Shown one piece after another: positions 7,411-18,772 of a DNA stretch of 41,593 nucleotides (within the stretch, counting starts at the first letter, position 1; each line of letters opens with the position of its first letter). The position numbers and the translations under genes were made by a program. Below the pieces are notes generated by a model. It had not been told where the DNA came from. It saw nothing but the letters and a program-made list of their open reading frames with translations, and did not search any database. Origin of the DNA: a bacterium (GTDB taxonomy: Bacteria > Actinomycetota > Acidimicrobiia > Spongiisociales > UBA5794); contig JAAETI010000237.1 of the NCBI GenBank assembly GCA_024228555.1, positions 1 through 41,593 of the forward strand, written 5' to 3'.

Positions 7411-8616
7411 TCAGACGGTGGTCAGAACCGTGGCGAACTGCTCGAGGGCCCAGTCCACCTCATCCTTGGTTATGACCAAAGGAGGTGCAATGCGAATCGT
7501 ATCCTCGTGGGTGTCCTTTGCCAGCACCCCACGGTCCTTCAACGAATCGATCAAAGGGCGGGCGCCACCGGCTTCAGGGTGTAGCTCGATTGCCAGCATC
7601 AAGCCGCGGCCGCGAACCTCTTTGATTGCAGGCGAGTCGATACCGCAGAGCTGCTCAAGGAAATAGGAGCCAAGTCGAGCAGAGTTATCAATGAGATTCT
7701 CCTCGACCAGCACTTTGAGGGCCTCGCGAGCGATTGCTGCGGCCAGCGGGTTGCCCCCGAATGTGCTCCCGTGCTCGCCGGGCTTGAGGACCCCGAGTAC
7801 CTCCAGGTTCGAAAGAACGGCCGATACTGGATAGAAGCCGCCGGACAACGCCTTGCCGATCAGGGTTACGTCTGCCTCTATGCCTTCGTGCTCTTCGGCG
7901 AGCAGTTTGCCGGTGCGGCCGAGTCCGGTCTGGATTTCGTCGAGGATCAGCGTGACGCCAAGACTGGTGCAGAGGTCGCGGACCTGTCGGAAGTAGCCCT
8001 GCGGCGGAATGATCACCCCGGCCTCGCCCTGAATCGGCTCGACAAGGAACGCAACGGTATTCGGATTGACGGCTTGTTGCAGGGCATCGAAGTCCCCAAA
8101 CGGCACCACGTTGAAACCAGGCGCAAACGGGCCGAAGCCCTTCCTAGCGGTGGGATCGGTGCTGAACCCGACAATCCCGATCGTTCTGCCATGGAAGTTG
8201 TTTGAGGCAACGATGATCTCTGCCCGATTCTCGGGAACCCCCCTGACCTCATATCCCCATTTGCGGACGGCTTTTATCGCAGATTCCACGGCCTCTGCAC
8301 CGCTGTTCATTGGAAGGATCTTGTGGCTACCGGTGAGCTGCGCAAGATCCTCATACAGAAGTGCGAGCTGGTCGTTTCGAAATGCCCGCGAGGTGAGCGT
8401 CAGTCGCGATGCTTGGTTCACCATTGCATCCATGATCCTCGGGTGGCAATGCCCCTGATTCACCGCTGAGTAGGCAGCGAGACAGTCGAGGTACTTGTTG
8501 TCCTCGGTGTCCCAGACCCAGACACCGCGGCCTCTGGTCAGCACCACATCAAGCGGCTCGTAGTTGTGGGCGCCAAGGCGTAGTTCGCTGGCTATCAGAT
8601 CAGGGGCAGATTTCAT
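7411..8616 (-). CDS. rocD: Ornithine aminotransferase
   Basis: This PLP enzyme transfers the delta-amino group of ornithine to 2-oxoglutarate, giving glutamate semialdehyde, in arginine/ornithine breakdown and proline synthesis. The 401 aa protein matches ornithine aminotransferases along its length: [22 protein letters not shown], the PLP Asp in [13 protein letters not shown] (D226), the Schiff-base Lys in LIGKALSGG (K255), and [13 protein letters not shown]. The ATG at 8616 has GGAGG five bases upstream and begins where homology begins; the frame stays open further upstream, into the end of the protease gene, without recognisable homology. It is the first of the fully housekeeping-type genes after the protease on the minus strand. 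It ends 49 bp before the ABC operon start. Confidence 0.95.
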
Positions 8617-8695: not shown

Positions 8696-11563
8696 CTAGT
8701 CCTCGAGTACCCAACCAGGGCAAACCGGCTCGTCACATAGGGCTCCTGCCCACAGCTCAACCGGGAATGCGTTGATCGGGTCGTCGACGGCCGGTGGGGC
8801 CAGATCCAGGCCTTCCGGAGTGCGGAGGACATCTTCGAGCCAGTCATCGAGAGTCCCGTCCGGCACCGGCATCGTGGTTGACGTCACCAGTGTCGTCGAT
8901 GTTGTCGGTGCGGCGCTTGTCGTCGTCGTGATGGTTGTCGACGGACTCATGACCGTTGTGGTCGTCAGCGATGGCGACGTTGTGGTCGTGGTCGTGGTGG
9001 CAGGTACCTCGCCGTCGGCAACGTACTGGAAGCCGTCGCGGTAGACGGTGGCGGCACCCGTAGTGCGGTCGGTGACCGTCACATCTACAAAGCCGGCGCT
9101 GCCCGGTGGGGTATCGACGACGATGAACGTTGGAGCGATCACGGAGACAATCTCGACCCCCCGCTCTCCGAACGTAACCTCGGGTAGTTCCGGCAGATTA
9201 CCGCCGGTGATCGTCACCAGTGTGTTGCCGGCAACAGGGCCTTGGGCTGGGTTTATACCGGTGATCACGATGGCGTTGGGATCAACGGGCGCTCCCGTGG
9301 TTGTCGTAGTTGTCGCAGGTGGAGCTGTGACGGTTGTCGTTGTAGTTGTCGTCGACGCAACCGTTGTGGGCGGTGCGATCGTCGGGGGAGCGCTAGTCGT
9401 TGGTGCGGGCCCGGCCGTGGTTGTCGTGGGGACTGGTGGCTGGGTTGTGGTGCTCGTGACTGTCACGGCGGTTGTCGTCGTGGTGTTCGGCGCAGCGGTT
9501 ATGGTTGTAGATACCGCCTCCGGGATCGTTGTGGTTGTTGCTTGGCTGGTCGTTGTGGATGTGATAGTTGTCGTGGTCTCGTGCGGAGCGGTGGTAGTCG
9601 AACTGGTGGGCACGGGGTCGCCACCGACTGGAATCTGTGGCATTTCGGTGACGTTGCCTGCGTCATCGACGATGAAGAACACTGCAGAGGGATCTCCCAA
9701 GGTCACCGGCGCAGTCGGGTCGGTCACGTCGACGACCTCGATGACAAAGGCATAGGTTCCGGCGGGCAACTCCATCGCCAGCGGGGTGAAGTCACCATCC
9801 TGGACGAATGCTGAACGGCGTTGCCTCTCGAACTCTGTTCCAATCAAAGCTCGGCCAGTGGCGTCCGTTGTGACCGCTAGGTCGCCGCCCTCTCCGGTGT
9901 ATGTGATCTCTTGGCCCACCACGGCCATGGGGTTGCCGTCGACGGGTACATAGAGACCGGCGCGATACATCGCAGGGGTCTGGGGGTGGATGATCCAGGG
10001 GTCTACGGTCTTTGCGGTGATCGCGACCTTGTGAGGGACGTGGGGTTCGAAGCTGTTGAATTCGTAGAAGTCGTACATGAGCGACGGTTGGAAGAGGCGT
10101 GTGTAGATGGATCTCTCGATGTTGAGTCGGCCATCGGACGACGCCAGGTTTCGGAAGCTCGTGACTCCGTCATTGGGGCCATCGGATCGATCGAGTAACG
10201 CACCCTTCACCTCGGCGTACGTTGCGCCAGGGGTTGCTGCCCATAACAGCGCTGCCGCCCCCGAGACCATTGGAGCCGCCATCGAGGTTCCGCTGTAGAC
10301 GCCATACCCACCGGGAACTGTGCTGATGATGTATTCCCCCGGAGCGAACAGGTCGACCGTCTGCTGGCCGTAACCGGACCAGGAGGCGGGATCATCGGTC
10401 GGGGTGGACGCCCCGACCACGATCACGTTGCTGAGGCTCGACGAAGCGGGGTAGATGGGGGACGCGTCAATGTCGACGGGTTCATTGCCTGCACCGGTTA
10501 CTACAAGGACACCGGCATCTGCCGCGGCGGTGAGAGCTGTTTCCAGATAAGGGGCCGCGGCGGGATCGTCGACCGCCCACGAAGCATTGATGACTCGAGC
10601 TCCGTTGTAGACCGCGTAGGCAATGGCTTCGATTGCTGCAGACAATGCAGGAGTACCGTCGCCGATCTTGAGCACCATGACGTTTGCCTCGTAGGCAACC
10701 CCGGCAACTCCGATGCCATTGTCGGCCTCGGCGGCAATGATCCCTGCAATATGGGTCCCATGGCCAACATGGTCATCAACGGAGGCGTCACCGTTGGCGA
10801 AGTCCCAACCAACGCAGTCATCGATATATCCGTTCGCATCGTCGTCGGTACCGTTGCCGCAGACCTCACGGGGGTTACGCCAGATGTTGTCGGCCAGGTC
10901 GGGATGGGTGATATCGGTACCGGAGTCGATCACCGCAACAACGACACCAGCGCCACGGGTACGGTGCCAGCTCTCCGGGGCGTCAATATCAGCGTCGGCG
11001 TTCATCGGCCACGGATCAACCGCATCGCCGTCGTTCTCAAGAGCCCATTGGGTCGGGTAGTACGGGTCGACAGATGTTGAGATGACGCCCGTGTCTGCGA
11101 CGACTTCTGTGACGCCGGGTATAGCGGATAGCTCTGCTGCGCTTGCCGCCCCTGCCACTGCGTAGATGTCGAAGCCGATCGCTTTCATTGACGTGACGGC
11201 GGGGTGATCGACCACCGCTTCCACAACTTGGCCTCGATCAGGGTGAGTCGGTTCGGCGACCGCTTCCTCAATGTCCTGTACCGATACCCGATTCTGAGGA
11301 TCGGCAGCGACGAGGTGATCCTCTGCATCGAGGCGGAGCCACGAATCGCCCTTCTGGCCGACGGCGGAGTCGATGCGGACCAGATAGTGGTTGAGATCAT
11401 CGGCGAATGGATCGCCGTCCCAGGCCAGGAACTGCGGCTCGATAGCGGACTGTGCCGCAACCGGAACAGCTGTGGTGCCAGCGGAAATGAGGGTGGCCGT
11501 GACGACGAGGGAGAGAATGGCCGCAATACCAAGATGGCTTCGACGGAGTGGCGATACCCGCAT
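8696..11563 (-). CDS. Secreted subtilisin-like serine protease with Thr-rich stalk and IPT/TIG domain
   Basis: This is a 955 aa exported S8-family peptidase. A signal peptide (residues 1-38: RRSH, a hydrophobic stretch, then PVAAQS) precedes a propeptide-like region to about 160. The catalytic domain has Asp213 (VIDSGTD), His268 (GHGTHIAG), oxyanion Asn360 (GAGNEP) and Ser427 (SGTSMAAP), all intact. After a beta-rich region of about 150 residues come two Thr/Pro/Ser-rich low-complexity stalks (DNA about 9300-9600 and 8880-9010) on either side of an IPT/TIG domain ([15 protein letters not shown]). The last 50 residues are unusual, with two Cys and the ending CPGWVLED, and no LPXTG or membrane helix. 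The ATG at 11563 is preferred over the TTG at 11572. The Thr-rich stalks may be O-mannosylated and span the wall. Confidence 0.93.
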
Positions 11564-11572
11564 TTGGTGCAA

Positions 11573-11777
11573 ATCCTTTGCTGTGTCGTGCCGATCCTTC
11601 GGCTCGTCTGGTATCGACGAAATCGGCCAGAAACTTGAATGCGGGCACTGCAGATTTCGAACCGAGTTTGGGGACGGGCCATTTCTGAGCAGGGGAACTG
11701 ACTAGTATCTCCGGACAGAAACACAATGGTCGTTTTTTGCGATCAAGTGCCACAACCTTTGGCCGATAGAAAAGCTT
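11573..11777. other. Divergent intergenic region between protease and coiled-coil gene
   Basis: This 205-bp gap must carry promoters for both the protease (minus) and the coiled-coil gene (plus). It is more AT-rich than its surroundings, with a T-run at about 11733-11738 and a TAGTAT stretch at about 11703. No box pair with good spacing stands out. The plus-strand gene lacks a Shine-Dalgarno before its ATG at 11778 and may be leaderless. Confidence 0.4.
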
Positions 11778-14700
11778 ATGAACAGCGCAAATGCCCCCAG
11801 CGGCCCCCAGCGGCCAAAATTCTCTACGGCCCGTAGAGGATTCGAGAAGGATCAGGTAGAAGCCTATTTGGACGAGGTGCGGGTGACGCAAGACAAGCTT
11901 GCATCATCGGCAGCTCTTTCCGAAAGAAGGCTGACGGATGCGACGTCGCGTCTCGAGGAGAGCGAGTTCCGTCTCAACGATGCCACGACTCGCATAGAGG
12001 AGCTGGAAGCCCGGCTTGCGGACGCCGCAGATGCGGTCCCGGTCGTCACCGACGAATCCGACGAGAACATGAAGTCGATGCTTGCTGCCAAGGAGCGCAT
12101 CATCGACCGCGCCAGAGAGCGAGCCCGCCAAATAGAAGAGGAGGCTCGCTCCTCCGCCAACACCATTGTCGACAAGGCCCAAGAGCAGGCCGCATCGTTT
12201 GTGGCAGCGGCCCAGGAACAGACCGCAAGCGCTGTTGCAGTCGAGGTCCCCGTTGTCGATCAGCCTTCCGCTTCACATGAGAGCGTTGTTCTTGCGAAGA
12301 AGGAAGCCGCAGTTGTCCTTGCACGGGCCGAGCAAAGAGCTGCCACCATTATTTCAGATGCCAAGCAGATCGAGTTCCAGGCTCGCGAAGCCGGTATCGA
12401 GGGGGCCAATTTCGACGAGTTGCAACGGGGCACGCTCGAAGCCGCTCGCGCTCGCGGCGAGTCGATCACCGCACGCGCCGAAGCCGTCGCAGCCGAAGCG
12501 TCGCAGGACGCCGCCCGTCTCAGAGCCGAAGCCGCGGCCGCAACCGCACAGGCTCGTGAGAAGCTAGCCGGGGCTCGGGCCGAGGCAACCCGACTCACCG
12601 AAGAGTCGAACGCCATGCTCACCAAGGCACAGATGGTCATCGCAGCTGCCCGCGACGAGGCCGACACGTCCTCTGCGGAAGCTGAGTCACGGGTGCAAAT
12701 GCTCACTCGTACCGCCGACAACTATTCAGCCCGGGTTCGCTCCGAAGCCGATCAGGCATCAAAGAGGGTTAGAGCCCTTGCCGATGACGACTCCGGCAAG
12801 CTGCGGGCGCAGGTTGACGCTGAGGTCGGAGAGACCAGGGCAAAGGCTGAAGGCATGTTGGCCAGTGCGGCGACTGCCCAGGAGACAGCGCAGACGACTC
12901 TGCGCAGCGCCAATATTGAGGCGAAGACACGGGTCGACGAAGCTACAGCCACTGCCGACGAGATCAAGGCTGCCGCCGAGGTCTATGTCGAAGAGATGCG
13001 GGGACAGGCTGATCGCGAGCTGGAAGAGCTTCGCTCCAATGCCGCAGAAGAGATTGCAGCAAAGGATCGCAAAGCCAAGGGGGCCTTGAAGGAAGCTCGC
13101 AACCGCGCCAATCAAGCTCGCAAGGACGAAGAGAAGGCAGCTGCTGCTGTCGTCGATGCCGAGTCAAAGGCTACCGGGATCGTTGCCGCTGCTGAGCAGG
13201 CTGCGGTGAACCGCCAGGCGGACTTGGAGCGGCAAGCCGCCCAGGCCAAAGAAGAGGCAGCCGTGCGTATGGCTGTAATCGTTGAGACCGAAGAAACTCT
13301 GGCCAGGAAACTGCAGCAGCTCGAAGTTGATCGTGAAGATATTGTGGCCCAGGCTGCAGCGGCTGAGGCCGATGCCGCGGCACTCCGCGAGAAGGCTGCC
13401 GCAAAGGTCGAGAAAGCCAAGTCTGCGAGCGCCGTCATCATCGAGTCGGCCAAAGCCGAGGCTCTCCAGGTTGCGGCTGACGCAGACGCCACGATCGGGC
13501 AGCGTTTCGCAGGATCTGATGCCGAGATCGCCAGCCGCGTCCAGGCCAGCGAAACACGGGCAGCGGGGATCATCTCTGATGCCAACAGAGCGAAGTCCGA
13601 CCTTGCAGCTGAGGCCGAGGCGGTCCTCGCTGATGCCCAACAGCAAGCCGTTGTCGTCCGGCGTGATGCCGGTGAGGCGGCTGGGGAGATGCGTAGCGCA
13701 GCTGCCGCCGAGTCCGACATGACCCGTGCCGAGGCTCGCCGCTACCTCGGTGATGCCGAGCGAGAGCGTCGTCAGGCGAGAGATGAACATGCCGAGGCGA
13801 AGGTCATAATCGACAGAGCCCGCACCGATGCCGAGTCGATCAAGGCTGAGGCCGAGCGCGATGCAACAGCTCTGGCCAGCTCCCATCGTGCTGAGGGCGA
13901 GCGCTTGGCGAAGCTCGCCGAGCAGCTGGAGGCACAACGCACCGAGATCGAGGTCGAGCAGTCATCGCTGGCTGCGCAGAAGTCGCAGACAGAACTGGCG
14001 CAACGAGAGGCCGAGGAAGCCCTGGCCCGGGCCCGTGCTGACGTGACCCGGATGCTCGAGGAAACCCGCAGCCAGTCCAACGAGGACAAGGCGCAGATTG
14101 AGCTCCGCCACGAAGAGATCACTCAAGAGCGTGAGGCAATCGAGAACTGGCGTGGCGAATTGGCAGGCTGGCGGGCACAACTCGACAAGGAACGTGCTGC
14201 CCTCGACGCAGCCAAGGGCCTGGTCGATCAGGACCGTTCGGAACTCGAGAAGGAACTGGCCAAGGCTGAGAATGGTTGGGCCGAGATGGAGCGCAAGGGA
14301 AGCCAGCTGCTCCACGGCGCTCAACTTGAAGCAGACGCCATCATCGAGCGAGCGTGGTCAGAAGCTCGCCGCGTAATCGGGCACACCGATAGCGATGGCA
14401 CCGACGATGCAGCCAAGCTTGCTGAGCTGCGGGCCGAACTCGAGAATCAGCGTGGTGACTTCGAGAAGAAGAAGGTCGAGTTCGAGCAGAGCCAGGCTCA
14501 GCTGGAGCTAGACCGAGCTGAACTCGCCAAGGACCGCGAAAACTACGAAGCACAGATTGCGGCTCAGGACGAAACCGATGGCGCAACAATCAGTGAGGCG
14601 CTTACCGAGCTCGAAAAAGAGCTGGCCCGTCTCGATGCTGCTTCTTCGGAGTCCAAGGAGATCGAAGCTCCCAAGCCGGTGAGCGAGCAGAACGGCTCAA

Positions 14701-15002
14701 CGAGCGATGACCCGGCTGCTGCAGTCGGCAATTGGGACATGCTGTGGACCGAAGAGGCTGACGATGAGTCAGTGTCCGAATCGGTTGATGGTGAGCCGGC
14801 CGACGAAGCAACCGATCCTGTAGAGGAAGCCGAAGATGAGGATGCATCGAGCGAAGCCTCGTCCGAGTATGGAGAGAGCCGCTATGCCCGCAAGGGTCGG
14901 CGTCTTCCCCACATTGACGACGGGGAGGCGTCATCGACGGTCGGTACCGGACTACGTAACGCGATCATTGGAGGCAGCAAGCGTGGTGGCGACTCCGCCT
15001 AG
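11778..15002 (+). CDS. Giant DivIVA-domain coiled-coil protein
   Basis: This 1074 aa, highly charged, Ala/Glu-rich protein is probably a cytoskeletal or polar scaffold. Residues about 14-35 (KFSTARRGFEKDQVEAYLDE) match the N-terminal DivIVA (DivI1A) motif that binds curved membrane; the Arg-Gly-aromatic pattern corresponds to KRGY in Wag31. Almost everything from about residue 36 to 960 is predicted continuous coiled coil, with mixed 11- and 7-residue spacing. An acidic linker follows, carrying NWDMLW (Trp986), and then a basic tail (YARKGRRLPH, residues about 1037-1046). DivIVA proteins are usually 160-400 aa, so this is two to six times larger. A 20-bp palindrome covers the stop codon, and the related gene at 15032 follows. 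Position and composition resemble the Streptomyces DivIVA/Scy/FilP polarisome proteins. Function is inferred. Confidence 0.88.
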   Translation: MNSANAPSGPQRPKFSTARRGFEKDQVEAYLDEVRVTQDKLASSAALSERRLTDATSRLEESEFRLNDATTRIEELEARLADAADAVPVVTDESDENMKSMLAAKERIIDRARERARQIEEEARSSANTIVDKAQEQAASFVAAAQEQTASAVAVEVPVVDQPSASHESVVLAKKEAAVVLARAEQRAATIISDAKQIEFQAREAGIEGANFDELQRGTLEAARARGESITARAEAVAAEASQDAARLRAEAAAATAQAREKLAGARAEATRLTEESNAMLTKAQMVIAAARDEADTSSAEAESRVQMLTRTADNYSARVRSEADQASKRVRALADDDSGKLRAQVDAEVGETRAKAEGMLASAATAQETAQTTLRSANIEAKTRVDEATATADEIKAAAEVYVEEMRGQADRELEELRSNAAEEIAAKDRKAKGALKEARNRANQARKDEEKAAAAVVDAESKATGIVAAAEQAAVNRQADLERQAAQAKEEAAVRMAVIVETEETLARKLQQLEVDREDIVAQAAAAEADAAALREKAAAKVEKAKSASAVIIESAKAEALQVAADADATIGQRFAGSDAEIASRVQASETRAAGIISDANRAKSDLAAEAEAVLADAQQQAVVVRRDAGEAAGEMRSAAAAESDMTRAEARRYLGDAERERRQARDEHAEAKVIIDRARTDAESIKAEAERDATALASSHRAEGERLAKLAEQLEAQRTEIEVEQSSLAAQKSQTELAQREAEEALARARADVTRMLEETRSQSNEDKAQIELRHEEITQEREAIENWRGELAGWRAQLDKERAALDAAKGLVDQDRSELEKELAKAENGWAEMERKGSQLLHGAQLEADAIIERAWSEARRVIGHTDSDGTDDAAKLAELRAELENQRGDFEKKKVEFEQSQAQLELDRAELAKDRENYEAQIAAQDETDGATISEALTELEKELARLDAASSESKEIEAPKPVSEQNGSTSDDPAAAVGNWDMLWTEEADDESVSESVDGEPADEATDPVEEAEDEDASSEASSEYGESRYARKGRRLPHIDDGEASSTVGTGLRNAIIGGSKRGGDSA

Positions 15003-15010
15003 GCGGAGTC
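14991..15010 (+). repeat. Perfect 20-bp palindrome over a stop codon
   Basis: GACTCCGCCTAGGCGGAGTC spans the last codons and TAG stop (15000-15002) of the first coiled-coil gene. As RNA it can fold into an 8-bp GC-rich hairpin with a CTAG loop, ending 21 bases before the next start codon. No T-run follows, so it does not look like an intrinsic terminator; it could affect termination, message stability or relative expression of the two genes. Confidence 0.7.
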
Positions 15011-15031
15011 TCCCACGATTGTGGAATCAGC

Positions 15032-18000
15032 GTGAAGAAGAGAAGCAAACCGGCTGCGAAACAGCCAAATGCGGAATCGAATCGCCCTGATAGTGATGCC
15101 AGGAATCGGTATCGGGCCCCCGCAGCTGACACCTCCGTCGCGACGATCCCTCACGATGCCACTCTCGATGATCCTGAACGAGAGTTCATAGATCGACTCG
15201 GCGCAAGAGCCGACGAAACCACTCGAGACTTGCTCGCCGCCGCCGAGGCGCGGGCGAGCTCGATTCGCGCTCGGGCTGAGGTGGAGGTGGCCGACGCCCT
15301 CGCCGCGAGCGCCAAGATGCGATCCGAGGCTGCCCACCTCTCCGCATCAGTCCGTGAGACGTTGGCCACTGCCAGCTCAGATGCTGAGGTGACCAGAGAG
15401 ATGGCGCGCGAAGCGCGCGAGGAAGCCGAGGCGTTGCTCGAGCGTGCCAGAACCGAGGTGCCGGTCACCCTCGAGACCGCACGAAACGAAGCCACGGCGA
15501 TCCTCAAGGAGGTGCGAAAGAAGGTTGCGCAAGCCGAGCTCGACACCGAGATTAGGGTCTCCGAGCAGCTCGATATCGCCCGTCACGAAGCCGCCGAGAT
15601 AGTTGCAATCGCACAAAGGCGCGCCGATGAGATCAGGGAAGAGGCGGAACAGCTGGCTGCGACCAAGAGCGACGACGTCGCCAAGGCGCTCGCCGATCGT
15701 CGCGCAGAAGCTGAGGAAGAGACGGCAGAGATGTTCAGCGTTGTCGACAGCGCTCGTGCCGATCTTGATCAAGCGATCATCAGGGCTGCCAATGATGTTG
15801 CCAGCGCAAATCGGTCGGCCGAAGCGATCCTGGCCGATGCTCAGCTGATGGCGGACGAGCTGCGCTCCGAAGCAGCCAAGGACCATGCTGCCGCCCAAGC
15901 CGAACTGGCGGCGGCAAGCGATGAGGCTGAAGTCTTGCACCGCGAGGCGCAGGAGCGTCTTGACGCGGTTGCGCTCACTGAGAACGAAACCGAGGAGCGG
16001 CTGGCTGCCTCCGAGCAAGCCGCAGAGGATCTTTACCAGAAGGCGGAGGAAACCCTCACCGCAGCTCGGGTTGACGCAGACGTGATGCAACGTTCCGCTG
16101 AGGAGCAACTTGCGGCAGCCAAAGAGCAGGAGAAGCTCTCAGCCGGGCGCATTCTTGCGGAAAAGCAGCAGAGCACCGAGATTATTGCCGCCGCCCAGAA
16201 AACCGCAGAGCGTATCGAGGTTGATGCCAGGGGCAGGGCCGCGGAGATAGTGGCCGAGTCAGAATCGCAGCTGGCCAGGGCCGCCGACAAGTTCGAAGAG
16301 AGTGAACGTCGGGAGCGGGACTCGCTCCAGGTCCGCGAGGACGCCGACACTGAGGCGCGACGTCTCCGCCAGGAGTCTGATCTTGCCTCGATCGCTTTGG
16401 AGCGGAGCCGCACCGAAGTCGAGAAGGTCACTCAGGAAGCCACCGAAGGTGCCCGAGCTACCAGGGAAAGGGCGTCAGACGAAGCTGCCGAGATGCGAGA
16501 AGCGGCCTCGGCCGCGGCCGAATCCCTGCGTGCCGAAGCTGAGAAGGAACTCCAGGATGCTCGCTCGGAAGCTGCCGTCGTCTTGGCCAAGGCCGAAGAG
16601 ACGGCAGGCACTGTCGAGCACCGACGCCGCGAAGCGGCAGACGAGTATGTTGAGACCCGCCGCGTCGATGCCGCGGGCCTGGTCTTTGACGGCGAGCAGC
16701 GTGCGGAAGCACTGCTTGCGGAAGCCGAGGAGCAGGCTGCCGCCATCCGAACCCAGCAGAGTGACGAGCTGCAGGCAGAACTCGAGCAGCTCCGCAACGA
16801 GGCAAATGAGGCCACTGAAGAATCTCGAAACGAAGCACACCGAAAGGTGGACGCTGCCCTGGCTCGTGCCGACCGGATTGCGGAAGAGTCGAAGCAAACG
16901 CTCGCCGCAAGCGAGGCCGTAGCCCGGGCCACTGCCGACAAGATCGTTGCTGATGCGAACACGGAAGCTGAGACCATCCGCACTGATAGCGAGCAGGAAG
17001 TCGCCGCTGCCCGTGAGCGGCTGACAGAGGAGCGCGATCGGCTTAGTGCCGATGCTCGCAAGCTCGCAGACGAGATCCTCGACGAAGCCCGCGAGGAATC
17101 GGAGGCCATGCTGGAGGTGGCAACAGCGGAGACTGCACGGCTCTCCGAAGACACCGATCAGCGAGCCACCGCCCAGCTTGCGGAGGCCGAGGAGTCAGCC
17201 CGGCGAACTCAGGCCGAAATGGATGAGTTGCGGTCGACCGCTACGGCTGAGGTTGCTGAGTTGCGGGCGAAGGCCGATGAGGAAACTGCTGAGTTGCGGT
17301 CGACCGCTACGGCTGAGGTTGCTGAGTTGCGGGCGAAGGCCGATAGGGAAACTGCTGAGTTGCGGGGGACTGCGGAGCGGGAGAGCTCTGAGTTGCGGTC
17401 GACCGCTTCGGCTGAGGTTGCTGAGTTGCGGGCGAAGGCCGAGTCTGAGATTGCGGAGTTGCGGGAGACGGCCGACAGCGACGCAGCACGGCTACTCGAA
17501 GACGCCAAGAAGGAAGCCTCGCAATTCACCGAAGCGGCAAGCAGCGCCGGCAAGTCGGCCACTTCCGAGGCAAACCAGTTGCTCGAGAACGCTAGGACCG
17601 AGGCTGCCGGGATGGTCGCCACCGAGAAGGCTCGCATCGAAATCGAACTTGGCGCCGCAACCAGCGGGGCCGCTGAGATCACTGCCAAAGCCCAGCAGGA
17701 GGCTGACGGGCTGTTGGCGGCGGCAAAGGCCGATCGCGAGGAAGCAACATCGTGGTCACTCGAAATGGTGGAGAAGGCGGAGGCCGAGGTTGAGGAGTTG
17801 CAGGCTGCTGCCCGCTCAACCGAGGAAGCCGCAACGCTTACCGCTTCTGAGTTACTTGACAATGCTCGCACCGAAGCTGGCGAGCTAGCGGCAGCTGGCC
17901 GGGCCAAGGTCACCACTGAGGGCGAGGATGCTGTGGCGAAGGCTGTGGAGTTGGTGGCGAAGGCTGAGCAGGAGGCTGAGGAACTGACTGCGGCTGCCAC

Positions 18001-18772
18001 CGCCGAGCGTGAGGATGCTGTGGCGAAGGCTGTGGAGTTGGTGGCGAAGGCTGAGCAGGAGGCTGAGGAACTGACTGCGGCTGCCACCGCCGAGCGTGAG
18101 GATGCTGCGGCGAAGGCTGTCGAGCTAATCGCCCGCGCCGAGACAGAAGCCGAGGAGATTTCTAGCCACGTCGAAACCGAGGTCGCCAGCGAGCGTGACG
18201 CACAGTTGGGGGCCAAGGCCGATCTGGCTGCGCAGCAGGACGCCCTTGCGATGGAGAGACAAGAATTCGAGACGGAGCGGGCCTCACTGCAGACGGAAAT
18301 GGAAGAGAGCAAGCAGCGCCGAGCCAAGATTGATGCCGAGAATGCCACCATCTTCAAGAAGCAAGCCATTCTGACCGAGGCCCAAGACGCGTTCATAACC
18401 GAACGTACGTTGTTGCAGCGGCGCTGGGCCGAGGTCGAACGAGAGAGCTTGGCGGCACTGGAGCGAGCCCACGAACAGGCTGAGAAGATCCTGTCCGAGG
18501 CAAGGGAGCAGGCTGCTGAGGTGTCCTCAGAGGAGGCGGCACCGGCATCCGAAGAAGAGGAAGCCACCACCGCCCAGACGGCCCTCGATCAACTTGACTC
18601 GATGCTCGCGCAAGCGCGTGAGGTTTCCACACAGCGCAGCGAGGCCGAAACCGAGGCCGCCGGTGACGACAACGACACTGCAATGTCCGGCGTTTGGGAC
18701 GCCGTTGTCGACGAATCCGAAACCGAAGGAGCCGATGCTCCGATCGGCTTCGATGTCCCCACCGGCGAATAG
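15032..18772 (+). CDS. Giant hendecad-repeat coiled-coil protein (Scy/FilP-like)
   Basis: This is a 1246 aa Ala/Glu/Arg-rich protein. A basic, disordered N-terminus of about 45 residues without a DivIVA motif leads into almost unbroken coiled coil (about residues 50-1180). Much of it has 11-residue spacing, as in ILAEKQQSTEI, IAAAQKTAERI and EVDARGRAAEI, with occasional heptads. Residues 732-819 hold very regular hendecads; residues 965-1022 are an exact duplication of a 29-residue block. An acidic tail carries VWDAVV (Trp1222). The C-terminal third resembles that of the preceding protein (WAEVERE here, WAEMERK there), so the two are probably paralogues. The GTG at 15032 has only a weak GGAA upstream, suggesting re-initiation after the upstream gene. 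The expected role is a filament or scaffold at pole or membrane; this is inference. Confidence 0.87.
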   Translation: MKKRSKPAAKQPNAESNRPDSDARNRYRAPAADTSVATIPHDATLDDPEREFIDRLGARADETTRDLLAAAEARASSIRARAEVEVADALAASAKMRSEAAHLSASVRETLATASSDAEVTREMAREAREEAEALLERARTEVPVTLETARNEATAILKEVRKKVAQAELDTEIRVSEQLDIARHEAAEIVAIAQRRADEIREEAEQLAATKSDDVAKALADRRAEAEEETAEMFSVVDSARADLDQAIIRAANDVASANRSAEAILADAQLMADELRSEAAKDHAAAQAELAAASDEAEVLHREAQERLDAVALTENETEERLAASEQAAEDLYQKAEETLTAARVDADVMQRSAEEQLAAAKEQEKLSAGRILAEKQQSTEIIAAAQKTAERIEVDARGRAAEIVAESESQLARAADKFEESERRERDSLQVREDADTEARRLRQESDLASIALERSRTEVEKVTQEATEGARATRERASDEAAEMREAASAAAESLRAEAEKELQDARSEAAVVLAKAEETAGTVEHRRREAADEYVETRRVDAAGLVFDGEQRAEALLAEAEEQAAAIRTQQSDELQAELEQLRNEANEATEESRNEAHRKVDAALARADRIAEESKQTLAASEAVARATADKIVADANTEAETIRTDSEQEVAAARERLTEERDRLSADARKLADEILDEAREESEAMLEVATAETARLSEDTDQRATAQLAEAEESARRTQAEMDELRSTATAEVAELRAKADEETAELRSTATAEVAELRAKADRETAELRGTAERESSELRSTASAEVAELRAKAESEIAELRETADSDAARLLEDAKKEASQFTEAASSAGKSATSEANQLLENARTEAAGMVATEKARIEIELGAATSGAAEITAKAQQEADGLLAAAKADREEATSWSLEMVEKAEAEVEELQAAARSTEEAATLTASELLDNARTEAGELAAAGRAKVTTEGEDAVAKAVELVAKAEQEAEELTAAATAEREDAVAKAVELVAKAEQEAEELTAAATAEREDAAAKAVELIARAETEAEEISSHVETEVASERDAQLGAKADLAAQQDALAMERQEFETERASLQTEMEESKQRRAKIDAENATIFKKQAILTEAQDAFITERTLLQRRWAEVERESLAALERAHEQAEKILSEAREQAAEVSSEEAAPASEEEEATTAQTALDQLDSMLAQAREVSTQRSEAETEAAGDDNDTAMSGVWDAVVDESETEGADAPIGFDVPTGE
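17225..17488 (+). repeat. Tandem 33-bp / 66-bp hendecad-coding repeats
   Basis: Eight consecutive 33-bp units each encode an 11-residue motif starting E-L-R: ELRSTATAEVA, ELRAKADEETA, ELRSTATAEVA, ELRAKADRETA, ELRGTAERESS, ELRSTASAEVA, ELRAKAESEIA, ELRETADSDAA. The first two pairs form a 66-bp unit repeated at 17225 and 17291 with only a few base differences. The block uses TTG, GTT and GCG codons more than flanking sequence, consistent with recent expansion by slippage or unequal crossover. Confidence 0.9.
17924..18097 (+). repeat. Perfect 87-bp tandem duplication
   Basis: The 87-bp block at 17924-18010 is repeated without a visible change at 18011-18097. A partial, diverging third copy begins at 18098 and fades after about 30 bp. 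Each copy encodes 29 residues starting EDAVAKAVELVAK, a length equal to two hendecads plus one heptad, so the insertion preserves coiled-coil phase. Identity at synonymous sites implies a very recent event or active homogenisation. Confidence 0.92.

Follow-up and report, generated by a model that had tools for sequence, protein, structure and literature searches.

A conserved gene pair for giant coiled-coil proteins, one with a divergent DivIVA-like head, behind a sigma28/WhiG-type promoter in Acidimicrobiia

The window analysed here, a 41,593-nt stretch (positions 1 to 41,593 of contig JAAETI010000237.1, assembly GCA_024228555.1) from an Acidimicrobiia genome (the window genome, G000), carries two adjacent genes for giant coiled-coil proteins, which we named P1 and P2. 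Both are real genes, with exactly the coordinates and lengths given in a preliminary description of this DNA, and together they are a well-conserved pair and a new branch of a known superfamily. That description missed their two most informative features, the sigma28/WhiG-type promoter in front of the pair and the tail that P1 has in common with a whole family. Both proteins are rich in Ala (22–24%) and Glu (14–18%). As the genes are on the same strand, 29 nt apart, with no terminator-like site on the + strand between them, they most likely form one two-gene operon.

11778 to 15002, + strand: P1, DivIVA-like giant coiled-coil protein, 1074 amino acids (aa); open reading frame (ORF) check, orthologue alignment, head model, AlphaFold
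15032 to 18772, + strand: P2, headless, hendecad-rich coiled-coil protein, 1246 aa; 29 nt downstream of P1, same operon
11814 to 11963, + strand: DivIVA-like head and first heptad coil of P1, residues 13–62; RGFEKDQVE replaces RGYDxxEVD
12078 to 12158, + strand: second family motif of P1, MLAAKERIIDRARERARQIEEEA, residues 101–127; family alignment, head model

The head motif of P1, FSTARRGFEKDQVEAYL, occupies residues 15–31, and the slightly longer segment of residues 13–35, PKFSTARRGFEKDQVEAYLDEVR, resembles the N-domain of DivIVA. General models score the head alone below their cut-offs (Pfam DivIVA: E = 0.009, 16.4 bits, cut-off 28 bits; TIGR03544: E = 0.002, 17.7 bits, cut-off 22 bits), and P1, which reads GF-E...V-E, departs from the strict pattern GY[DN]xx[QE]V[DN]. 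A head model built without any P1 sequence detected all P1 orthologues at 3e-13 to 3e-9 (P1 itself 3e-9), and at E ≤ 0.01 it matched neither shuffled or reversed decoys nor P2, to which no Pfam or NCBIfam DivIVA model matched either; the head proposed earlier for P1, and its absence from P2, are thus borne out. The match to P1 spans the head and, about 80 residues further on, the second motif (AKERIIDRARERARQIEEEA in P1, AKDRILERARRKADEIEEEA in its sister proteins) with its conserved AKxRIxxRA segment; between head and second motif P1 has a 21-residue insert of three heptads. The family head profile matches the solved N-domains of DivIVA, GpsB and Wag31 (2wuk at 2.5e-6), and AlphaFold predicts for the P1 head a short beta/loop element followed by a helix at residues 24–86, mostly with a predicted local distance difference test score (pLDDT) > 89. 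Foldseek and VIA-align searches with the model of the P1 head gave no match. Taken together, the detection by the P1-free model, the profile matches to the three solved domains and the predicted loop-then-helix fold identify P1 as a DivIVA-like protein, by homology, with a divergent head. Proteins of the DivIVA-like superfamily are recognised by a motif of the RGYDxxEVD type at the N-terminus and a heptad coiled coil after it (PMC9858780), a combination found in P1 and not in P2.

P1 apparently belongs to an undescribed family of this Acidimicrobiia group, with members of 260 to 1468 aa that consist of a DivIVA-like head, the AKxRIxxRA segment, a rod, an acidic linker and an SRY-x-x-LP tail. 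Eight other DivIVA-like loci are present in the window genome, among them a giant of 899 aa beside a 269-aa protein (C489) and proteins of 656 aa (C162) and 260 aa (C355). Within the partial coverage of the literature, no publication was found that joins Acidimicrobiia with DivIVA.

14643 to 14999, + strand: acidic disordered tail of P1, residues 956–1074; GNWDMLW at 984–990, tail motif GESRYARKGRRLP at 1032–1044, GLRNAII..KRG

The common tail of the sister giants reads RESRYRSRSAQLPRLGNQAKSNMTTMANLRKKSRG (C489), SRYSRNSAGLPRIGEDGEASVIETMKGLRTKF (C355) or SRYERNSAKLPRIGDQGESVLESMRNLRAS (G013), and P1 ends in a divergent form of it, GESRYARKSRHLPxI...GSGLRNAII..KRG, with a core that is invariant in five orthologues. 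Since a tail model built without P1 scores P1 only marginally (E 0.014–1.5), the link to the family is given here by the SRY...LP pattern and its terminal position. A headless coiled-coil protein of 228 aa (C377) and its counterpart in G004 have a slightly altered version of the tail; P2 has no SRY-x-x-LP tail. The Trp-Asp motif described earlier for the acidic ends of both proteins holds for its Trp, conserved in the orthologues of P1 (GNW-x-MLW) and of P2 (SGVW or SGAW), and not for the Asp that follows it in P2. The two C489 genes (L043:4884-7583, 899 aa, and 7644-8453, 269 aa), both DivIVA-headed, are themselves a tandem pair, which adjoins a PEPCK_ATP-family gene and an aldolase-like gene and is kept across the genus; single giants of the C489 type (1404–1468 aa) occur in other genera, a wider spread than that of P1 and P2. 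Headless coiled-coil proteins of 224–228 aa with an LPRIGE tail and a sigma28-type promoter were also observed (L157:761-1444 and L137:5171-5842, both on the - strand).

11743 to 11768, + strand: sigma28/FliA/WhiG-type promoter TCAAG-N14-GCCGATA, 9 nt before the P1 ATG; transcript predicted to be (nearly) leaderless
11612 to 11638, - strand: divergent sigma28-like site TCAAG-N15-GTCGATA before the subtilase gene; GCCGATA version in G001 and G005
11699 to 11706, + strand: TGACTAGT element, 44 nt upstream of the -35 box; TGACTAG at -79 in four of five P1 orthologues

In each of the five P1 orthologues, TCAAG is separated by exactly 14 bases from GCCGATAG, with the ATG 9 nt past the GCCGATA box. 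Written as TCAA-N15-GCCGATAG, this is a promoter of the TAAA-N15-GCCGATAA type at a conserved position and with identical spacing; the flagellar-type consensus (-35 TAAA, -10 GCCGATAA) is common to WhiG (PMC8325347). No sigma70-like site was found near the operon and, as the sigma28/FliA/WhiG-type promoter is the single one, P1 and P2 would be made only when a sigma28-type factor is active. Given the very short distance between promoter and ATG, their transcript should be leaderless or nearly so. The same element lies 8 nt before the GTG of the C489 899-aa giant in six genomes of the genus. Its exact 12-base pattern occurs twice in the 5.4-Mb window genome, before P1 and before the C489 giant; the reversed pattern, used as a control, also has two matches genome-wide, so that the count is unremarkable and the positions are what is remarkable. 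The variant TAAA-N15/16-GCCGATA has five matches vs. none for the reversed control, one of them 8 nt before the C355 DivIVA-like gene, and over 50 genomes of the family TCAAG-N14/15-GCCGATA has 157 matches vs. 25 reversed (summed totals). Genes that follow the motif in other genera of the family encode DivIVA-like giants (G017, G296), receiver-domain proteins, an Hpt/HATPase kinase, a T2SSE/PilT-type ATPase and M23 peptidases. In the window genome it stands, with one mismatch, before the gene for the C377 headless tail protein and also, on the other strand, ahead of the subtilase gene divergent from P1.

This subtilase gene (8696-11572, - strand), with its own sigma28-like site, encodes a TIG domain and Thr-rich linkers. 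Elsewhere in the window genome, a secreted 851-aa protein with four lamin-tail domains (L220:4575-7130) starts 8 nt after TCAA-N16-GCCGATA (C519:21566), and a sortase gene (C477) has the TAAA version of the motif 45 nt upstream. The TGACTAG(T) element also lies upstream of genes on C377, C732 and G004 C220 and in G027, G029 and G296; TGACTAG occurs only 12 times in 248 kb of background and is possibly the site of a further co-regulator.

Sigma factors of the type that would read such promoters are present in the genome. WhiG is encoded on C923 (TIGR02479: 264.8 bits, cut-off 189.6; best match in the Protein Data Bank 6pfj, a Streptomyces-type WhiG, 1e-76), between a recombinase-like (xerC-like) gene and rpsB-tsf, surroundings that are those of whiG in Streptomyces as well. 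A second, FliA-like factor (184.7 bits) is encoded on C549 beside FlgE-, FlgK- and FlgL-type genes (L180), a set with which these Acidimicrobiia probably build flagella. Three of four Acidimicrobiales species are reported to have twin-motif RsiG (PMC8325347).

P1 orthologues are 64–66% identical from end to end and those of P2 41–49%. The ratio of non-synonymous to synonymous substitution rates (dN/dS) is 0.08–0.18 for P1, with the strongest constraint at the head, and 0.17–0.30 for P2 (dS near saturation in both), i.e., purifying selection clearly acts on P1 throughout and less strongly on P2. The two genes occur together only within the genus, in G001 (split over two contigs), G002, G003, G006 and the window genome; a profile search of 296 genomes of the class gave no full-length relative outside the genus, only weak partial matches to the coiled coil or head, and nothing was found among plasmids and viral contigs. 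The site is empty in G004, where about 240 bp separate the flanking 883-aa gene from that for the PPIase, and in G005 a single headless ORF of 288 aa, matching fragments of P2, lies directly under the retained promoter (L053:3500-4400). This ORF may be a functional mini version. In a tree of two flanking genes, G001 groups with G004 and G003 with G005, both at full support, so the states of G004 and G005 look like independent losses, with the caveat that these are draft assemblies. The pairing in related genomes that the preliminary description had proposed to look for is therefore conserved in five of the seven genomes of the genus, and it is not clade-wide, being lost or eroded in the other two. 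The neighbours of the pair are a subtilase, a PPIase, an amidohydrolase and an ABC transporter, and the downstream genes are the same in the orthologues. A functional link to the downstream PPIase was considered and rejected: its gene is widespread without the pair, so the adjacency marks no conserved functional link outside the genus.

12276 to 14642, + strand: P1 rod, residues 167–955, helices broken at about 206, 296, 499, 692 and 869; AlphaFold, periodicity
17224 to 17475, + strand: P2 DNA repeats of 33/66/99 nt, multiples of an 11-residue unit
17924 to 18124, + strand: P2 DNA repeat of 87 nt (29 residues)
18368 to 18511, + strand: conserved C-terminal block of P2, ILTEAQxAFxxERTxLQRRWAExE...ALERAHEQAEKIL; orthologue alignment

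Both proteins contain long proline-free stretches (P1 residues 164–964, 800 residues; P2 residues 145–1170, 1025 residues), and the hydrophobic period of the rods, about 3.6–3.67, fits a hendecad or mixed coiled coil rather than a plain heptad one. In the AlphaFold models of five P1 orthologues there are eight long helices, from 18–86 to 877–955, with about 874 helical residues, breaks near residues 87, 155, 206, 296, 499, 692 and 869 and a disordered tail from 956, all at low whole-protein confidence (mean pLDDT 66, predicted template modelling score 0.27). The rods are indeed long and Ala/Glu-rich, and calling them nearly continuous was slightly too strong for P1. Laid end to end, the helices of P1 would extend over about 130 nm; this is the most that can be expected, since the model shows a jointed rod and has low confidence. 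P2 has a basic N-terminus and varies from 1076 to 1334 aa among its orthologues, in its middle part, with conserved ends; its 33/66/99/87-nt repeats suggest that units of 11 residues are duplicated as the rod lengthens. The kinship proposed for the C-terminal thirds of P1 and P2 is suggestive only: hhalign gave 85% for these regions and < 30% for most mismatched pairings, and one pairing of different regions reached 84%. Matches to Pfam TPR_MLP1_2, Apolipoprotein and FliH, all far below their cut-offs, were discarded as an effect of coiled-coil composition.

The locus could be a fast-evolving, neutrally drifting, repeat-rich pair with little function, as the changing length of the P2 middle with its recent 33/66/87-nt duplications and the loss and reduction of the pair in G004 and G005 might suggest. 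We regard this as very improbable, already disfavoured by the selection measured on P1, by conservation at both ends and by a promoter with invariant spacing that is kept even over the remnant ORF of G005. The rods could alternatively be a mechanical or motility structure and not a polarity organiser: a filament or ribbon in the cytoplasm by which a motile cell is stiffened or driven, the head being only an assembly nucleus. Rods of about 870 helical residues, a P2 rod of variable length between conserved ends and a promoter class that is also that of motility and pilus-type genes in the family would all agree with such a filament, whereas a DivIVA-homologous head in every sister giant, and a full pair that is kept in most of the genus yet lost in two genomes, speak against it, and we consider it unlikely.

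A polarity or scaffold role is the natural reading of a headed giant rod with a headless neighbour. Starting from what the sequence supports, namely the homology of head and second motif, the operon layout, the promoter motif with its conservation, the selection and the distribution within the genus, we infer the acting sigma factor, dimerisation, localisation, contact between P1 and P2, client and function as follows. Release of a sigma28/WhiG-type factor would lead to joint transcription of P1, P2 and the sister giants. The P1 head would dimerise and attach at curved or polar membrane, at poles or septa or to an existing DivIVA lattice, while its mixed heptad/hendecad rod projects inward to the cytoplasm and the acidic linker with the SRY-x-x-LP tail holds a client. 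P2 would be recruited by P1 and co-assemble along its rod; the nearest parallel is FilP, which DivIVA recruits in Streptomyces (PMC3781837). The resulting scaffold would position a lifestyle-specific machine in a programme of motility, adhesion or a dispersal cell. By a modest preference, we thus read P1 and P2 as a scaffold that is induced as part of a motility or dispersal programme and anchored at the pole or membrane. More tentatively, this family of Acidimicrobiia may be one in which a sigma28/WhiG-type factor switches on DivIVA-headed giants with a new SRY-x-x-LP docking tail, i.e., a lifestyle-specific polarity apparatus separate from vegetative polar growth, of which P1 and P2 would be an expendable extension in one genus.

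Several points weigh against the inducible scaffold. The P1 head alone matches solved DivIVA-type domains weakly (GpsB, E = 0.24), and in the alignment its Arg19 stands at the position of Phe17 of B. subtilis DivIVA, which inserts into the membrane (PMC7340271); because of this replacement, the earlier label of a membrane-curvature motif is not established; the loop is basic, as in Wag31, which makes membrane binding plausible. The pair is lost in G004 and reduced in G005, and is therefore not essential. Two sigma28-type factors are present, either of which could read the P1 promoter. Of the 12 motif matches in the window genome, four fall within unrelated ORFs and a fifth is ambiguous, which means that a regulon cannot be delimited by the motif alone. 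Finally, all genomes are draft metagenome-assembled genomes.

DivIVA-type scaffolds are known mainly as constitutive factors of polar growth or division, whereas here several giants with one common tail stand directly behind flagellar/WhiG-type promoters, an unexpected and testable regulatory link for giant rods which suggests that the cell builds a dedicated internal scaffold on a lifestyle switch. If this is true, the WhiG switch, with its targets of spores in Streptomyces and type IV pili in Rubrobacter, would be tied to cell-polarity scaffolds, and its targets in Acidimicrobiia, a poorly studied class, would be open to a clear test. Searches for further members, and for the client, can start from the leaderless promoter and the tail motif.

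Among known systems, the WhiG regulons share with the pair the flagellar-type promoter consensus and a WhiG gene in the genome; they comprise sporulation in Streptomyces and type IV pili in Rubrobacter (PMC8325347). They differ in that the dependence of P1 and P2 on the sigma factor is read from sequence only, and the WhiG targets named in the literature that was covered, passages of PMC8325347 among it, include no DivIVA-like scaffold. With DivIVA and Wag31, P1 has in common a family head profile that matches their solved N-domains and basic loop residues as in Wag31, whose lipid-contact residues themselves also differ from those of B. subtilis DivIVA (PMC7340271). P1 is set apart from both by a four- to five-fold greater length, the exchange of Phe17 for Arg, a position that is not beside sepF/ftsZ and its dispensability within the genus.

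Closest in layout are Scy and FilP. The preliminary description had placed heads and rods of Streptomyces in separate proteins and taken the fusion of a DivIVA head with a Scy-like rod as a novelty; this was wrong, as Scy and FilP themselves carry an N-terminal DivIVA-like motif and, after it, a coiled coil in which hendecads run over long stretches, at lengths from < 200 to > 1000 residues (Martinez-Goikoetxea and Lupas 2023, PMC9858780). P1 and P2 could be the Acidimicrobiia equivalents of Scy and FilP, housekeeping scaffolds of polar growth in a tip-organising centre: in both cases a DivIVA-like motif precedes a long Ala-rich hendecad/heptad rod, and two rod genes are adjacent, as in scy-filP, with the larger product > 1000 aa (PMC9858780). 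We hold this to be rather improbable. P1 is not a Scy orthologue (NF041483: 4.1 bits, E = 6.3, cut-off 1040), and the expected synteny fails, as Scy is restricted to Streptomycetales and lies beside the genes for crotonyl-CoA reductase (CCR) and methylmalonyl-CoA epimerase (PMC9858780), both absent beside P1 and P2. The pair is also restricted to one genus, was lost twice there and has a sigma28-type rather than a sigma70-type promoter. P1 further differs from Scy in keeping the residues N-terminal of the RG motif, which are truncated in Scy, and from both Scy and FilP in its RGFExxQVE motif, the AKxRIxxRA second motif, the SRY-x-x-LP tail, its neighbourhood and its promoter; P2 is headless, whereas FilP has a head. 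In Streptomyces, FilP is recruited by DivIVA and filP is repressed by WhiA (PMC3781837), a known case in which developmental regulation extends to polarity proteins.

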